Source: Chitinophaga pinensis (GTDB lineage: Bacteria; Bacteroidota; Bacteroidia; SXHM01). From it: a stretch of DNA of 41,289 nucleotides. The DNA is taken from NCBI GenBank assembly GCA_945861685.1, contig CAMAVO010000006.1:1-41289 (forward strand). Reading direction: 5' to 3'. Positions 25,585 to 31,773 of the stretch are shown piece by piece. Both the position numbers and the translations under genes were made by a program. Under the pieces are notes generated by a model. The model was not told where the DNA came from. It saw nothing but the letters and a program-made list of their open reading frames with translations, and searched no databases. Numbering within the stretch: the first letter of the stretch is position 1; the number at the start of each line of letters is the position of its first letter.

Positions 25585-25635
25585 TACACAATTTGAATTT
25601 GCACGGCTTAAAGTTATAGCTTAAAAATCAGGAAG

Positions 25636-25675
25636 CAAAAACCCCTGCCGAAGTTTTAGTCCAAACGGCAGGGGT
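25636..25675 (-). terminator. Intrinsic terminator of the sigma/PKD operon
   Basis: A perfect 10-bp GC-rich stem (25641-25650 with 25666-25675) and 15-base loop are followed, reading on the minus strand, by a run of Ts. It lies about 60 bp after the stop of the large PKD gene and marks the end of the four-gene minus-strand unit. Confidence 0.85.
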
Positions 25676-25697
25676 CACACAACAACAGGGAACTATG

Positions 25698-25736
25698 TTC
25701 CCCTCTCCTTTTGGAGAGGGGTTAGGGGTGAGGCTT
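25698..25736. repeat. CCCTCTCC..GTGAGGCTT intergenic repeat, copy 2
   Basis: CCCCTCTCC and GGAGAGGGG form a 9-bp hairpin with a TTTT loop, followed by TTAGGGGTGAGGCTT. Its last bases form part of the TAA stop codon of the large PKD gene. Same family, orientation and position relative to the gene as the copy at 7583-7619. Confidence 0.87.
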
Positions 25737-28437
25737 ATTCTGTTTTAACTAATTTGCGTGTTACTGCTGAATTTGTTTTCTCATCTGCAAGTATGAGGTT
25801 ATAAATTCCTGCACTTAATTCCGATACAGGCAAGTTAATTTGCTGAACACCTGAACCAAAGTTCATGATGGTGGCATACACTTGTCTTCCTGCAATATCA
25901 ACTATGCGAATGCTTAAACGTGCATCTTTCTGCAGGCTGATATTGATAGCCGCATCTCCTTTGAACGGGTTAGGGGATACATTACCAACCGAAGTTTCGT
26001 TAATTACCGCAACTTCATTTACACCGGTAGTTACTTCTCTTGAAGTGATGAGCAAACCAATATCAGTGATGTTCATGTTTGAACCGTCAATGGTTACGAT
26101 AGCAGGAACAGTAGTAAGGTTATACACTTCGCCATATACCTGATACGTCCCGTAAGCCACATTGCTGAATGAGAACTCACCGAAAGCATCGCTATAGGTA
26201 TATTGCAACGGCTCGTCATTCATGTTGAGTAACATAACCTGAACACCTTCAACAGCATCACCGGGGCCTTCGGTTTTATTAGCTCCTTCAGTAACCAGTC
26301 CACCAATAAAGCCGGGACCACCAGGGTTGTTACCCTCAATCATGTGGATGTTTCTGTTAAGATTTGAAGTAAGGCTGATTACGTCTGCATTGTACCAGAA
26401 CAGTTCGTGCTCAAAATATGTTGGCAGGAAGTTGGCATAAACAGATGAGCCTGGAGACAACGCTGCTTTCAGGAAGTAATTTCCTGCGGGAGCATGGAAT
26501 ACATAATGTCCGTTAGTTCCAATTCCTATTGTTTGAACATTGGTTAACACTCCGCTGCTTGCATCATACTGTATAAGCATTACATACCCTTCGTCTGCAT
26601 AATTTTGTCCGGTGTAAATGGTTCCCGACAACTCAAACAAATCAGGGCTGTTTCCATGTTCTACAAAAATAGTCTGACACGATTCTTCGCTGCAACCGTT
26701 AGCGGTGTTGGTAACAGTTAAGCACACTTCATAATGCTCAGGAAACAAGGTATAAGCATGGTTAGGGTTGTGCATATCGCTTGCATGCCCATCACCAAAG
26801 CTCCACGTGTAATGCGTTCCGTCTGCATTAGATGGTCCGGCAAAGTGAACCTCATTACCTGTAATAGTGTAAGTGAATTCTGAGTTACATGTACTTCCGC
26901 TTCCGTGTTGTACATATACTGTCTGACAAACGGTATCGCTGCAACCGTTAGAAGTGTTGTTGATAATCAGGCACACATTATAATGTTCCGGGAACAGCGT
27001 GTACGTATGCCAAGGATCTTGTCCTTGTCCGGTTGAGTTGTCGCCAAAAATCCAGCTGTAGCTTACACCATTTTGATTTGAATGGCCCATGAAGTGTATG
27101 GCATTGTCAACAACGGTATAGGTGAATGATGCTTCACACTCATCACCTCCGCCACTGCTGCTTTGTACATAAACGACCTGACATGAATGGCTTTCGCATC
27201 CATTGCTGTTGTGAATTGTTAAACAAACGGTATAATGTTCAGGGAACGATGTAAACGTATGTGTTACGTTTTCGCCTGTGCCTTCGGTGCCATCACCAAA
27301 GCTCCAGCTATAGGTAACACCCGGAACTGATGAACTTCCATGGAATACTGCAATATTTCCGTCCTGTACAAAGGTGAATGAAGCTTCGCAATCGCTGTTA
27401 TTTTCGTTGCCTTCAACAAATACAGTATGGCAATAGGTATTCTCACAGCCATCGTTGTTATAGATAGTCAGGCAAACATTGTAATGCTCGGGTGAAAGAG
27501 TGTAATTATGAACCGGATTTTCACCTCCACCTGTTGTTCCGTCACCAAAATGCCAGTAGTAATAAACACCGGGAACGTTAGATGCACCATCAAAATGCAC
27601 CTCGTTTCCACTGATGGTGTAAGTGAAAGATGCGTGACATTCTTCAGGTGTAGTGCTTTCAATAAAGATGGTTTCGCATACCTGATCTTCGCAACCGCTG
27701 CTGTTGTGAATGGTTAAGCACACTTCATAATGTTCGGGTGAAAGGTCATAGTTATGCACCACGTTCTCACCATTGGCATCGCTTTGGTCACCAAAGTTCC
27801 AGTGATAGGTTACACCGGGAACGGTTGATTCTCCATGAAAATGAACTTCGGTGCCGGTAATGGTATAGGTGAATGAAGCTTCGCAGGCAGGAGGACCTTC
27901 AACATAAATGGTTTGGCAAACGGTGTCCTGGCAACCAACGTTGCCGTTTACTACAATCATACACACTTCGTAATGTTCGGGATAAAGCTCATAGGTATGT
28001 GTTTGACCTTGTCCGGTTGCAGGGCTGGAACCATCACCAAAAAACCAGTAGTACGAAACTTCGGAATAGCTTGAGTGTCCTTCAAAAGCAACGGTAGCAC
28101 CTTCAACAACATAGGTAAATGAACCTTCGCAGTTCATGCCCGGTCCTGTTTGTACATAAACACTTGCACAATATTCATCGGTGCAGCCGAGTCCGTCTGA
28201 AATCGTAAGACATACATTGTAATGCTCCGGATAAACCGAATACGTATGCGTTACATTTTCGCCATTGGCATCGCTTTGGTCGCCAAAGTTCCAATGATAC
28301 GTTACGCCAGGGGTATCTGATATTCCATGAAAAACCACAACATTGTTTTCAACGGTGTAGGTAAATTCACCTACGCAGGCAAAGCTTGAAATTGCTGCTG
28401 CAAAGATAAGTGTGAGGGTAGAGATTAATTGTTTCAT
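25735..28437 (-). CDS. Large surface protein with seven PKD repeats and T9SS sorting domain
   Basis: The 900-residue protein has a signal peptide (MKQLISTLTLIFAAAISSFA). Seven consecutive PKD modules of about 81-83 residues follow at about 21-597. Each starts C(E/H/N)xSFTY and contains a (W/F)xFGD(G/Q/N) core, a PEHYxVCL strand and a terminal GCxxxxC pair, so each module has four regularly placed cysteines. Two carboxypeptidase-regulatory-like (Cna-B-like) segments cover about 600-800. The last roughly 80 residues form a type A T9SS sorting domain (VSPNPFKGDAAINI..DIAGRQVY..LSAGIYNLIL..RKLVKTE). It should be exported across the outer membrane and attached or released. PKD arrays usually serve adhesion or polysaccharide contact. 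It is the last gene of the sigma-factor unit. Confidence 0.92.
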   Translation of the reverse strand: MKQLISTLTLIFAAAISSFACVGEFTYTVENNVVVFHGISDTPGVTYHWNFGDQSDANGENVTHTYSVYPEHYNVCLTISDGLGCTDEYCASVYVQTGPGMNCEGSFTYVVEGATVAFEGHSSYSEVSYYWFFGDGSSPATGQGQTHTYELYPEHYEVCMIVVNGNVGCQDTVCQTIYVEGPPACEASFTYTITGTEVHFHGESTVPGVTYHWNFGDQSDANGENVVHNYDLSPEHYEVCLTIHNSSGCEDQVCETIFIESTTPEECHASFTYTISGNEVHFDGASNVPGVYYYWHFGDGTTGGGENPVHNYTLSPEHYNVCLTIYNNDGCENTYCHTVFVEGNENNSDCEASFTFVQDGNIAVFHGSSSVPGVTYSWSFGDGTEGTGENVTHTFTSFPEHYTVCLTIHNSNGCESHSCQVVYVQSSSGGGDECEASFTYTVVDNAIHFMGHSNQNGVSYSWIFGDNSTGQGQDPWHTYTLFPEHYNVCLIINNTSNGCSDTVCQTVYVQHGSGSTCNSEFTYTITGNEVHFAGPSNADGTHYTWSFGDGHASDMHNPNHAYTLFPEHYEVCLTVTNTANGCSEESCQTIFVEHGNSPDLFELSGTIYTGQNYADEGYVMLIQYDASSGVLTNVQTIGIGTNGHYVFHAPAGNYFLKAALSPGSSVYANFLPTYFEHELFWYNADVISLTSNLNRNIHMIEGNNPGGPGFIGGLVTEGANKTEGPGDAVEGVQVMLLNMNDEPLQYTYSDAFGEFSFSNVAYGTYQVYGEVYNLTTVPAIVTIDGSNMNITDIGLLITSREVTTGVNEVAVINETSVGNVSPNPFKGDAAINISLQKDARLSIRIVDIAGRQVYATIMNFGSGVQQINLPVSELSAGIYNLILADEKTNSAVTRKLVKTE

Positions 28438-28535
28438 TTTTATTTATGATTTGGTGAATTACGATTTAGTGATTTTGGGTTTCGGTGATATACACGCTGA
28501 TTGTTTGATAAAGGTTGGTAGGTTTGTTTTTTTAT

Positions 28536-29699
28536 TTATGGATGTGCCACCGCTATAGTAGCTGCCGCATTTTCAAGTTGTATGGAATTAGTTCCGTTAT
28601 ATAAAGTGCAGTTTAAACTGATGTTCAACTTTTTTGTTCTATCTCCGTTCTCATTTACTTCATATTCTTCCACATTGTTTATTTTAAAATAGCTGGCCAT
28701 GGGCTGTGCTGCATTGTTGGAGGTGTATTCCACACCTGCCGCATCGGTCCATTGCACCTCTACTGTTGAAAGGTTAAAAGGGTTTGAAATAGTGGTAGTG
28801 GTGGCTGAATAACGGATAGAACACTCGCCCGGATTTTCGGTGGCAACGTTGAGGCAGCGGGTATTTGTGCAACTATCGCTGCTTACAGTGGTAAGACAAA
28901 CTTGGTAAACTCCGGGGGTGGCAAAGGTGTGGGTTGGATTGGCGCTGTTGTCGTTGGCAGTTCCGTCACCAAAATCCCAATCATAAGTCCATGGTGCTGT
29001 GCCACCCGGGTTAGAAGTAAGCGCAACGGTGTTTACATCCACCGAAGAGAGAATAAACCCCGCATCGCACGAAAGTGCCGACACGCCTAGGTTAAGCGGA
29101 TTGCTGATATTGCTGCTGCAACCCGACTGGTAAGTTACGGTAAGTCCTACCTCATAAATGCCGGTATTGGCATAAATATGTGTGGGGCTTCCCTCGGTAG
29201 AAGTGGTGCCATCGCCAAAGTCCCATAAAAAGCTTTGCGGCTGACCACCCGTTGTAAGCGGAGTAAACTTTACGCTGTAGCTTGCAGGCGCCCCGCCCGG
29301 AACAGCAAACGGAAGATAGGTTAATGGAAAACTTCCTGCATCAATTGCCGAAGAGGGAACTGCATCGGCTTTGTAATTGCTGAATATAACCTTCAGAGTA
29401 TTGGCGCAACTAAAGCAATCGGTTGGCTTAAACTCTCCCATAAAGGTGAACACATCGTTAGCGTCTAACCAATAATCCGAATACATATAATAGCCGTTTT
29501 CACCGGCACTGATAGCAAGACCCGAATTGTCTAATTGTCCGTTGATGAAAAATACGGGGGTGGTATCGGTTGGCTCGGGGTCATCGGGTTTGTTGCAGGC
29601 AAACAGGCAAATAGCCAAGCAGGGAAGTAGCCAAGTAGCAAATCCTATTTGGCTATTTGGCTTAGTGGCTATGTGGCTTTTTGAGTAAAGTTTTATCAT
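28536..29699 (-). CDS. PKD-domain lipoprotein
   Basis: The 387-residue protein has a lipobox LFAC (Cys35) followed by NKPDDPEP. This acidic stretch is similar in spirit to Bacteroidota lipoprotein surface-export signals, but not an exact match. Two PKD domains are seen at about 139-203 (FLWDFGDGTT) and 211-286 (YDWDFGDGTA), flanked by uncharacterised beta-rich segments. The signal peptide is unusually long, and codons about 7-17 are built from an imperfect 8-bp tandem repeat. No later in-frame ATG could replace the start. The gene begins 4 bp after the beta-barrel gene and precedes the large PKD gene, so these three are probably one operon. Confidence 0.85.
   Translation of the reverse strand: MIKLYSKSHIATKPNSQIGFATWLLPCLAICLFACNKPDDPEPTDTTPVFFINGQLDNSGLAISAGENGYYMYSDYWLDANDVFTFMGEFKPTDCFSCANTLKVIFSNYKADAVPSSAIDAGSFPLTYLPFAVPGGAPASYSVKFTPLTTGGQPQSFLWDFGDGTTSTEGSPTHIYANTGIYEVGLTVTYQSGCSSNISNPLNLGVSALSCDAGFILSSVDVNTVALTSNPGGTAPWTYDWDFGDGTANDNSANPTHTFATPGVYQVCLTTVSSDSCTNTRCLNVATENPGECSIRYSATTTTISNPFNLSTVEVQWTDAAGVEYTSNNAAQPMASYFKINNVEEYEVNENGDRTKKLNISLNCTLYNGTNSIQLENAAATIAVAHP
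29608..29681. repeat. 8-bp tandem repeat and inverted repeat inside a signal-peptide coding region
   Basis: Positions 29650-29681 read as four tandem 8-bp units of the form TGGCTWNN. CAAATAGCCAAG (29608-29619) pairs with TTTGGCTATTTG (29648-29659) with one mismatch. All of it lies in the first 31 codons of the PKD lipoprotein gene. Confidence 0.75.
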
Positions 29700-29703
29700 A
29701 CAA

Positions 29704-30969
29704 TCAATGACGGATTAAATCGTATTTGAGTTGGAGTTGGAGGGAGATGTTGCGGTCAGTTCCTTTAATATTATTGTAACTGTTTTGGGTAATATCATAA
29801 AAACCATAACTGAACTGCAATCCTGTGTTCATTCTATCAAACAGAGTTAACTCATATCCTATAAAAGCTGCAATATCATTTTTGCGGAAGCCCGCATGTT
29901 CTCCTGTTTGTTTTTCTGTGCTGCTTTCAAGAACACCAAAGCTGTTTTCGGTTGTATGTGTTATTTTGGAAGTAGTGGTAAGCAACCGATAATAACAAGC
30001 TCCAACTAAAAGATGGCTTCTCTGTGTGATATTAAATCTCAGATACAGAGGAATAGTTAAATAATGAAGCGTTTGAGGCGAAATTGTCGTCTTGTCGTTT
30101 TCAACTCCAAAACCAAACTCAGAATTGGTAATAGTTTTATCATTATTAAGTGCTCCTCTGCTTGAATAAACTGCACTTACTCCAAGTTCAATATGTTTGC
30201 TGAATGCTCTTTGATAATATATACCGCCTGTAAAACCAATTATACCCTTATTATCATTTACTCCTATAGTTGAATAGTAAGGAAACCAATACCCCGTCCC
30301 TGCCATAACACCCCAGGCATTTTTGGTTTCTTTTCCTGGCGCGGTAAGCGTGTTTTTAGCGGTTTCTGCTAAAGAAGCAGAATCGGTTGAAAGCATTTTT
30401 TCGGCTGCTTGGGCAGAATCTTGTTCATTTTCAGTGGTTGCCATCTGGGTAGAAATGGTTGCCACCAAGGTTTCAGCCGTTGCCATCTGGGTAGGAATGT
30501 TTGCCAGCCGGGTTTCATCCGTTGCCATCTCGGTAGAAATGTTTGCCACCAAGGTTTCAGCCGTTGCCATCTGGGTAGGAATGGTTGCCATCTGGGTTTC
30601 AGCCGTTGCCATCTCGGTAGAAATGGTTGCCACCAAGGTTTCAGCCGTTGCCATCTGGGTAGGAATGGTTGCCATCTGGGTGTCAGCCGTTGCCGTTGAG
30701 TTGAGAACCGTTGCCGACTGGTTGGCAGCCGTTGCCAACTCTGTTTCTTTCCCCTTTTTATCAGTTGTCGGTATAAAAAACCAAGCCGCACCCGCCACCA
30801 AAACCACAAACATTGAAGCAGAGAAATACCAGAAAAACCCAACTCTGCGTTTCCTCTGCTGTGCATCAAGCAAGGTTTCCATACCCGCCCATGCTTTTTC
30901 ATCAAAGGCAAACTCACGGCTGTTGAGCTTTTCGTTGATGATGTTTTCGGTTTCTTTTTCTTTACTCAT
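29704..30969 (-). CDS. Putative trans-envelope protein: anti-sigma-like tail, TM helix, heptad linker, outer-membrane beta-barrel
   Basis: The 421-residue protein has four visible parts. Residues 1-43 are a charged cytosolic tail (FAFDEKAWAGMETLLDAQQ, then RKRR). Residues 44-66 are a transmembrane helix (GFFWYFSASMFVVLVAG..). Residues 67-217 are a low-complexity linker in which 77-181 form 15 seven-residue repeats of the kind xMATxxT. The last about 200 residues have the alternating pattern of a PorT-like outer-membrane beta-barrel (IGFTGGIYYQRAF, LHYLTIPLYLRF, LQLQLKYDLIRH). The tail resembles those of proteins encoded beside Bacteroidota ECF sigma genes. The gene follows the sigma gene by 35 bp. 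Anti-sigma activity is inferred from position, not shown by motifs. Confidence 0.82.
   Translation of the reverse strand: MSKEKETENIINEKLNSREFAFDEKAWAGMETLLDAQQRKRRVGFFWYFSASMFVVLVAGAAWFFIPTTDKKGKETELATAANQSATVLNSTATADTQMATIPTQMATAETLVATISTEMATAETQMATIPTQMATAETLVANISTEMATDETRLANIPTQMATAETLVATISTQMATTENEQDSAQAAEKMLSTDSASLAETAKNTLTAPGKETKNAWGVMAGTGYWFPYYSTIGVNDNKGIIGFTGGIYYQRAFSKHIELGVSAVYSSRGALNNDKTITNSEFGFGVENDKTTISPQTLHYLTIPLYLRFNITQRSHLLVGACYYRLLTTTSKITHTTENSFGVLESSTEKQTGEHAGFRKNDIAAFIGYELTLFDRMNTGLQFSYGFYDITQNSYNNIKGTDRNISLQLQLKYDLIRH
30427..30741. repeat. 21-bp minisatellite (15 units) with 84-bp higher-order period
   Basis: The region encodes 15 heptads. The 252 bp at 30427-30678 is three copies of an 84-bp unit made of four 21-bp subunits (QMATIPT, QMATAET, LVATIST, EMATAET and close variants). 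The subunits at 30679-30741 are more diverged. The 21-bp period keeps frame with any copy number and leaves long open frames on both strands. Confidence 0.93.
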
Positions 30970-30985
30970 GCTGTTTTCTTTTTTA

Positions 30986-31012
30986 CCGCTAAGGCGAAAA
31001 GGCGCTAAGCTG
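30986..31012. repeat. CGCTAAG-type intergenic repeat between sigma and barrel genes
   Basis: ACCGCTAAGGCG and GGCGCTAAG are near-direct copies in the short gap between the sigma-factor stop and the barrel start. They resemble the CACTAAG-type element at 3140-3186, which suggests the same loose repeat family. Confidence 0.45.
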
Positions 31013-31577
31013 TTTTGCTTTTAATTTCAACTACCTCTGTCCCTAATATTCTTACTTTCAGTTTTTCGCGGGCATTGTTCAAATGCCATTTGCTGGTTCC
31101 TTCGCTCATACCCAACATTTCGGCTATTTCTTTATGTCCGAAACCATCTACCACAAAAAGATTAAATACTTTTTTACTCACATTCGGCAACTTGTCAATA
31201 TGGCGTTGAATTTCCTGTGCATCCATGCGCTTTACCGCATCGTTTATTTCCACCAGTGTTTCATCTTCTCTGCGGTCGGTAAAATCGTGATATTCTAAAA
31301 GCTCTTTTTCTTTTTTGTTTTTGCGGTATTCATCAATAATGGTGTTGATCATCAGTCGTCTTGCCCACAAGCCAAACGGAATTTCCTGTCTGTATTTTTC
31401 AAGATTATTCAGCAATTTTAAATAGCCGAGATTTAAGAGGCTTTGGGCATCTTCTTTATTATTGCAATATCTAAAACAAATGCTCATTAAAAAACTATAC
31501 AACTGTTTATACAAAGCAAACTGCGCCTTGCGTTCCTTATTAATACACTGCCGTAAAAGTTCCTGTTCAATGTTCAT
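31005..31577 (-). CDS. ECF-type RNA polymerase sigma factor
   Basis: The 190-residue protein has region 2 at about 20-90 (LYSFLMSICFRYCNNKEDAQSLLNLGYLKLLNNLEKY..FGLWARRLMINTIIDEYRKNKK). Region 4 lies at about 128-178 with a helix-turn-helix (GHKEIAEMLGMSEGTSKWHLNNAREKLK). This layout, without regions 1 and 3, is that of ECF sigma factors. It is the first gene of the unit ending at 25735; the product likely directs transcription of its own operon and perhaps other surface genes. Controlled release by the neighbouring membrane protein is an inference. Confidence 0.93.
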   Translation of the reverse strand: MNIEQELLRQCINKERKAQFALYKQLYSFLMSICFRYCNNKEDAQSLLNLGYLKLLNNLEKYRQEIPFGLWARRLMINTIIDEYRKNKKEKELLEYHDFTDRREDETLVEINDAVKRMDAQEIQRHIDKLPNVSKKVFNLFVVDGFGHKEIAEMLGMSEGTSKWHLNNAREKLKVRILGTEVVEIKSKTA

Positions 31578-31585
31578 TTAACCAA

Positions 31586-31613
31586 TAAAGGTATAAAAAA
31601 CGGCAAAACACAA
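31586..31613 (-). promoter_or_regulatory. Candidate promoter of the sigma-factor unit
   Basis: On the minus strand TTG (31613-31611) is followed after 17 bp by TACCTTTA (31593-31586), which matches TAnnTTTG except at the last base. The leader would be under 10 bases. A second candidate, AACCTTTG at 31651-31644, lies further upstream. Confidence 0.35.
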
Positions 31614-31773
31614 TCTGCATTCAACTACACGTAAGATTTTGTGCAAAGGTTAGGCTGAAGAAAAAAATATTTTTCAATCGCGCTAAATCCCTTTACAGAA
31701 AAGAGTTTGCAAGTTTATTAATTTCTGGTTTTTGTTTTTAAAAACAGCTGAAAAAGCACCAAACAAACCGGTC

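Follow-up and report, generated by a model that had tools for sequence, protein, structure and literature searches.

We describe here a locus of four minus-strand genes (25735-31577) in a 41,289-nucleotide stretch of DNA, hereafter the window, which comprises positions 1 to 41,289 of contig CAMAVO010000006.1 (GenBank assembly GCA_945861685.1, labelled Chitinophaga pinensis). The genes encode an extracytoplasmic function (ECF) sigma factor, a protein predicted to span both membranes, a lipoprotein and a secreted surface protein, the last two with PKD domains. We consider it highly probable that the first two gene products form a sigma/anti-sigma pair of the Dma type with an output of its own. 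Features given below lie on the minus strand unless stated otherwise.

Architecture of the barrel-bearing protein

The sigma factor gene (31005-31577; 190 amino acids) matches Sigma70_r2 and Sigma70_r4_2 of Pfam as well as TIGR02937, and has orthologues in other genomes. The next gene (29704-30969) encodes the predicted Dma-type anti-sigma protein of 421 amino acids. Its cytosolic tail (residues 1-43; 30841-30969), which is delimited by alignments and presumably binds the sigma factor, contains a tryptophan (W27) that is nearly invariant among relatives. The tail leads into a single transmembrane helix (approximately residues 47-66; 30772-30831), which is evident from hydropathy and matched by a helix at residues 24-65 of the AlphaFold2 model. 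A periplasmic linker of about 150 residues (30322-30771) and an OmpA-like outer-membrane beta-barrel (residues 217-421; 29707-30321) complete the protein.

The barrel fold had been named beforehand as a point on which the original prediction, an earlier reading of this DNA from its letters alone, could fail. The AlphaFold2 model, built on an alignment of 41 sequences, shows barrel strands at residues 217-420 with block mean predicted local distance difference test (pLDDT) values mostly of 88-98, and leaves linker residues 70-211 unstructured (pLDDT < 50). In Foldseek searches against PDB entries, the OmpA barrel ranked first (E-value 6.7e-8 for an OmpA model), and the best small-barrel entries had TM-scores of 0.55-0.64 by target length. 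The Pfam model OMP_b-brl_2 matched residues 244-394 with an E-value of 8e-6, 0.6 bit under its cut-off; among relatives, OMP_b-brl_2 was found in 24 and OMP_b-brl in 13 of 41 proteins, an independent confirmation of the barrel family. The modelling supports the arrangement of tail, transmembrane helix, linker and barrel, from which we infer that the protein spans both membranes.

In the FecI-FecR-FecA system, an ECF sigma factor is likewise controlled from the outer membrane, the signal being relayed via separate inner- and outer-membrane proteins. The original prediction contrasted its single bridging polypeptide with this circuit, and the contrast is valid. The bridge is not new, however, because the same architecture is already found in Dma1 and Dma2 of Bacteroides thetaiotaomicron (PMC13088901) and in Reo of B. 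fragilis and Phocaeicola vulgatus (PMC9308784, PMC13114119). By definition, a Dma protein combines an anti-sigma domain with a transmembrane helix, a disordered tether and a barrel, and its gene adjoins an ECF21 sigma gene (PMC13088901). The window's protein has one transmembrane helix, a long disordered tether, a C-terminal barrel and an adjacent ECF sigma gene, and by this modelled architecture we assign the locus to the Dma/Reo class of anti-sigma factors.

Conservation of the sigma/barrel pairing

To avoid bias, only the sigma profile was used to search a collection of 84,980 species genomes, from which 80 loci were retained; three of these end too soon for the partner gene to be judged. 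Conservation of the pairing, another point raised in advance, was found throughout this sample of Bacteroidota: in all 77 loci with enough DNA, a gene on the same strand starts -35 to +83 bp after the sigma gene, and nearly all of these genes encode an N-terminal tail and one transmembrane helix. The barrel profile matches 67 of 84 partner proteins, a count that is partly circular, as the profile was built from 41 of them. When 60 related genomes were considered, the barrel protein was matched in 21.

Within the genus, the order of sigma, barrel, lipoprotein and PKD type IX genes is kept in all seven members; flanking genes are as in the window in five of the six relatives, and the sixth carries the locus in another context. 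The sigma and barrel genes are still adjacent in other families. The window's genome has eight genes with a Sigma70_r4_2 domain, and only the sigma gene of the window has a partner with tail, transmembrane helix and barrel. Compared with the window's protein, four divergent genus members show 63-86% identity in the tail and 69-82% in the barrel.

Several loci depart from the common plan. In L066:2630-4000, L069:8558-10177, L091:4460-6139 and L094:8567-10279, the transmembrane helix is preceded by a tandem array of two to four tails, which suggests several sigma-binding sites in one protein. Sigma-linked proteins with a tail and a transmembrane helix have no barrel match in L109, L112, L118, L122, L130, L134 and L135, possibly through loss or replacement of the barrel; two tails are apparently present in L112, L118, L122 and L130. 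At G000:C7 and in L038, another sigma gene is followed by a transmembrane protein of at least 490 amino acids, possibly a second unusual anti-sigma factor. The protein of L058 (CAMBRL010000013.1) is identical to that of G001; this locus is labelled Chitinophaga pinensis, and its sigma factor differs widely from the sigma factors of cultured Chitinophaga strains (L106, L120, L121), so that the label is probably wrong.

A conserved promoter motif and the probable output

The sigma gene is preceded by the pattern AAC-N17-CGT in 45 of the 80 loci, where 4.3 are expected and 100 shuffles yield at most 9. Enrichment upstream of sigma genes is seen at a spacing of 17 only, and the two bases preceding AAC, which lie outside the search pattern, are C in 42 and 38 of 46 sites, respectively. 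In the genus, the alignment of sequences upstream of the sigma gene from six variants, one of them with unrelated upstream DNA, contains two invariant elements. One, AACCT-N15-CGTGTA (31626-31651), is predicted to serve the sigma gene as a sigma-dependent promoter; the other, a 17-nt block that is identical in all six, lies within what would be the 5' leader (31596-31612; TGTGTTTTGCCGTTTTT).

Exact matches to AACCT-N15-CGTGTA occur twice in the 3.04-Mb genome, once before the sigma gene and once (28491-28516) within the 98 bp that separate the lipoprotein and PKD type IX genes, where the 17-nt leader block is missing. All six genus variants retain this second predicted sigma-dependent promoter, with spacers that differ and one substitution in G003, and the distant locus L061 has a similar site ahead of its PKD type IX gene. 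Since a conserved promoter of the sigma type lies in the 98-bp gap, the fourth gene is probably transcribed on its own under direct control of this sigma factor, and the four genes probably make up two transcription units. The same promoter, conserved in the genus, makes the PKD type IX protein a likely output of the sigma factor. The window's assembly is a draft that is 88% complete, and further sigma targets may be missing from it.

Other promoters and regulon members were considered and rejected. A housekeeping promoter of the form TAnnTTTG for the sigma gene is represented in the window by TAACCTTTG, but the part conserved in the genus is AACCT-N15-CGTGTA. A site similar to the motif is found at a lectin-like gene in G004 and G006; G001 and G005 lack it, and it overlaps a -7 box of the housekeeping kind. 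A BNR-type gene of G004 has no orthologue in the other genomes, and the remaining motif matches in the window's assembly are inside coding sequences or at no gene start.

Repeat-built linkers

The original prediction had described a long heptad linker. Its seven-residue periodicity was confirmed, as were the tail, the transmembrane helix and the barrel, whereas a continuous coiled-coil rod is not supported because the AlphaFold2 model is free of helix in this region and prolines occur in alternate repeat units. Most of the linker is encoded by a 42-bp in-frame tandem repeat (30429-30737; 14 amino acids) with an 84-bp higher-order unit and 93% matches, and its autocorrelation at lag 14 is 0.43 compared with 0.12 expected. 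The seven-residue repeats are species-specific in the genus: MATIPTQ/MATAETL in the window and GTQSEVS, NTTVLDQ or NTTVSEA elsewhere. Self-identity of the genus linkers at lag 7 or a longer period is 0.17-0.43 versus approximately 0.1, with the weakest repeat in G002, and most of the arrays are visible at the DNA level as 21-, 42- or 84-bp repeats. Outside the genus such periodicity is slight or absent.

In the four divergent genus members, linkers are 132-181 residues long and only 17-30% identical to that of the window's protein; the linkers of G000 and G006 are equal in length and differ in the order of their units. In the wider set of partner proteins, the median linker length is 181 residues and the minimum 116. 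Judged from these sequences, the genus linkers are built anew from unrelated seven-residue repeats, which fits a spacer under selection for length and solubility rather than for sequence. Opposite the linker repeat, the plus strand carries an open frame of 233 amino acids (30323-31024), probably an artefact of the stop-free repeat.

The lipoprotein family and the type IX cargo

The third gene (28536-29699) encodes a lipoprotein with a lipobox at Cys35 and conserved N and C domains, between which Pfam finds two PKD domains. In the family as a whole, the N domain (approximately residues 48-118) is usually followed by PKD-like domains and then by the C domain (294-387), which often ends in IAVA[HY]P; in L063 and L082 the N and C domains leave no space for a PKD domain. 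With profiles of the two domains, the lipoprotein was recovered from 38 of the 80 loci; its gene invariably comes next to the barrel gene on the downstream side, mostly with a gap of -4 to +20 bp, and these 38 loci contain no match elsewhere. Sigma, barrel and lipoprotein genes are also present in the cultured Brumimicrobium salinarum (L096). Pfam recognises essentially the PKD domains alone. The structure was predicted with confidence (mean pLDDT 88.5), and searches of the PDB with the N and C domains gave weak matches of the Ig, FnIII and PKD types and no close solved relative outside the PKD domains. Kinship with NigD was rejected, as no NigD family was matched at E ≤ 0.01 in any of 40 members. 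By sequence, the third gene thus represents a lipoprotein family of its own kind, with no named domain beyond PKD. A clear lipobox lies near the assigned start in 34 of the 38 lipoproteins; 30 of these 34 have Lys or Arg at +2 or +3, and in 24 acidic residues follow shortly after, a pattern that we take to be compatible with a Bacteroidota surface-export signal.

The fourth gene (25735-28437) encodes a surface protein with seven PKD domains and a type IX C-terminal domain, recognised by Pfam and TIGRFAM models. The sorting domain (Por_Secre_tail, residues 821-895; 25753-25977) scores above both curated cut-offs, with 38.2 bits for PF18962 (cut-off 27) and 29.1 bits for TIGR04183 (cut-off 23). 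A type IX cargo gene directly follows the lipoprotein gene in 11 of the 37 loci with enough DNA, compared with a rate per gene of 5.6% in the rest of these loci (p = 4e-6, the true significance being lower, as related lineages among the 11 are not independent). At least two types of cargo occupy this place, with and without PKD domains. Species of the genus differ in how many PKD motifs their type IX protein holds, with counts from 6 to 11 (fourth gene, L041-L045).

Gene junctions and terminator

The four genes are separated by gaps of 35, 4 and 98 bp, as had been claimed. The claimed intrinsic terminator also exists, at the second of two hairpins (25640-25676) rather than the first (25700-25721). 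Its arms, CCCCTGCCG and CGGCAGGGG, are followed by T5, and the folding z-score of 25625-25735 is -3.8. The first hairpin is a perfect palindrome, CCCCTCTCC-N4-GGAGAGGGG, present at six genomic places with at most one mismatch. Text resembling dispersed palindromic elements is also found at the junction of the sigma and barrel genes (30970-31004) and in the part of the lipoprotein gene that encodes the signal peptide (29597-29699), and similar text stands at the lipoprotein-cargo junction in L042 and L044.

Relation to known systems

Dma systems (PMC13088901) resemble the locus in the single transmembrane helix, the long disordered tether, the C-terminal barrel and the adjacent sigma gene, and have an N-terminal anti-sigma domain where the locus has its presumed sigma-binding tail; neighbouring operon genes are induced there when the anti-sigma gene is deleted. 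Their downstream genes encode DUF4943/DUF4858 proteins, or their regulon includes NigD, with a vesiculation phenotype (PMC13088901), whereas the window has a repeat-built linker, a PKD lipoprotein outside any named family and a cargo of type IX secretion. The EcfO-Reo pair, known from B. fragilis and P. vulgatus, is similar in its cytoplasm-to-surface anti-sigma factor with a terminal barrel and in a regulon that includes surface lipoproteins; it differs in that NigD proteins and lipopolysaccharide (LPS) genes belong to the regulon and that oxygen and antibacterial toxins are the inducers (PMC9308784, PMC13114119). PorXY-SigP of Porphyromonas gingivalis and SM6 of Flavobacterium psychrophilum also link an ECF sigma factor to type IX secretion, and SM6, too, has a CGT box, at -10 (PMC4800418, PMC9723704). 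In those systems it is the secretion machinery that is regulated, by way of a two-component system or of an anti-sigma factor not further specified (PMC4800418, PMC9723704), while the window's locus is predicted to control one cargo through a barrel-bearing anti-sigma protein. In the available literature we found no description of this lipoprotein family, of the promoter, of a tie to a type IX cargo or of repeat-built linkers.

Proposed mechanism and alternative explanations

Genetic work on Bacteroides and Phocaeicola has shown that a protein of the Dma/Reo architecture holds its sigma factor in check (PMC13088901, PMC9308784), and the idea that outer-membrane stress sets the sigma factor free was put forward by Evans et al. 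in 2022 and in a 2026 study of P. vulgatus (PMC9308784, PMC13114119). In the mechanism that we propose, the 43-residue tail would hold the ECF sigma factor at the inner membrane, while the transmembrane helix, the disordered linker and the OmpA-like barrel would tether the tail to the outer membrane. Disturbance of the barrel or binding of a ligand, perhaps with participation of the co-encoded lipoprotein, would free the sigma factor, by proteolysis or by pulling. The freed sigma factor would then read the AACCT-N15-CGTGTA promoters, the first renewing the operon of sigma factor, anti-sigma protein and lipoprotein and the second driving the PKD type IX surface protein. Three considerations weigh against this account. 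The case for the window's organism is computational; the loci compared include no Bacteroides member, and kinship to Dma1 and Reo is judged by architecture; and with 11 fixed bases about 1.5 exact genome matches are expected by chance compared with the two found, so that the case for the second promoter rests on its position and conservation.

What the barrel would report on can be read in more than one way. It may act as a general sensor of outer-membrane stress that reports damage to barrel assembly or LPS, with downstream genes that are merely protective, as for EcfO-Reo. We give this reading slightly less than an even chance: antibacterial toxins induce the pair of P. vulgatus, which has been proposed to respond to envelope stress (PMC9308784, PMC13114119), but the strict motif predicts that the regulon comprises the locus's own operon and a single surface protein, less than a general stress response would cover, although weaker sites would escape such a search. 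Alternatively, the PKD type IX protein or the lipoprotein could itself be the sensed ligand, so that the barrel would report loss or build-up of a PKD surface layer in a homeostatic feedback, along the lines of the original prediction. The fixed place of the lipoprotein gene in its 38 loci, the excess of type IX cargo genes in fourth position and the cargo's own sigma-type promoter all agree with this. They suit an output equally well, however, many loci lack a type IX gene in that position, and the 11 cases include related lineages; we regard a sensed ligand of this kind as rather doubtful.

That the barrel is a mere outer-membrane anchor, or is cleaved off, with sensing by the periplasmic linker or the tail, appears improbable. 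The linker is nearly free to vary in comparison with the barrel, and some sigma-linked proteins have no barrel match at all, but a freely varying linker makes a poor sensor, and in most genus members the barrel is conserved as well as or better than the tail, which suggests that it is more than an anchor. Hardly credible is an assembly of four unrelated neighbours around an ordinary OmpA-like protein. With 147 matches, type IX genes are common in this genome, yet the gene order is kept in the seven genus members and partly in other families, the transmembrane helix and tail are retained throughout, and the promoter motif is common to both units.

Implications for Bacteroidota

Going beyond the Dma-type pair with its own output, one could suppose that a distinct Dma branch exists outside gut Bacteroidales, composed of a sigma factor, a spanning anti-sigma protein and a dedicated lipoprotein that is a working part of the sensor, with a genus regulon of about one type IX protein. 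We consider this unlikely on present evidence. If it were true, the barrel would monitor or build a PKD surface coat, and the length of the repeat-encoded linker could shift by in-frame recombination, tuning the circuit. Studies of barrel-bearing anti-sigma factors have so far dealt with gut Bacteroides and Phocaeicola, but such proteins are widespread in Bacteroidota and occur also in lineages with abundant type IX cargo. To what is known of them, the locus adds a predicted promoter, a predicted direct surface target and a conserved lipoprotein partner, and with these the question of what envelope-spanning proteins sense becomes testable via a single-target reporter.

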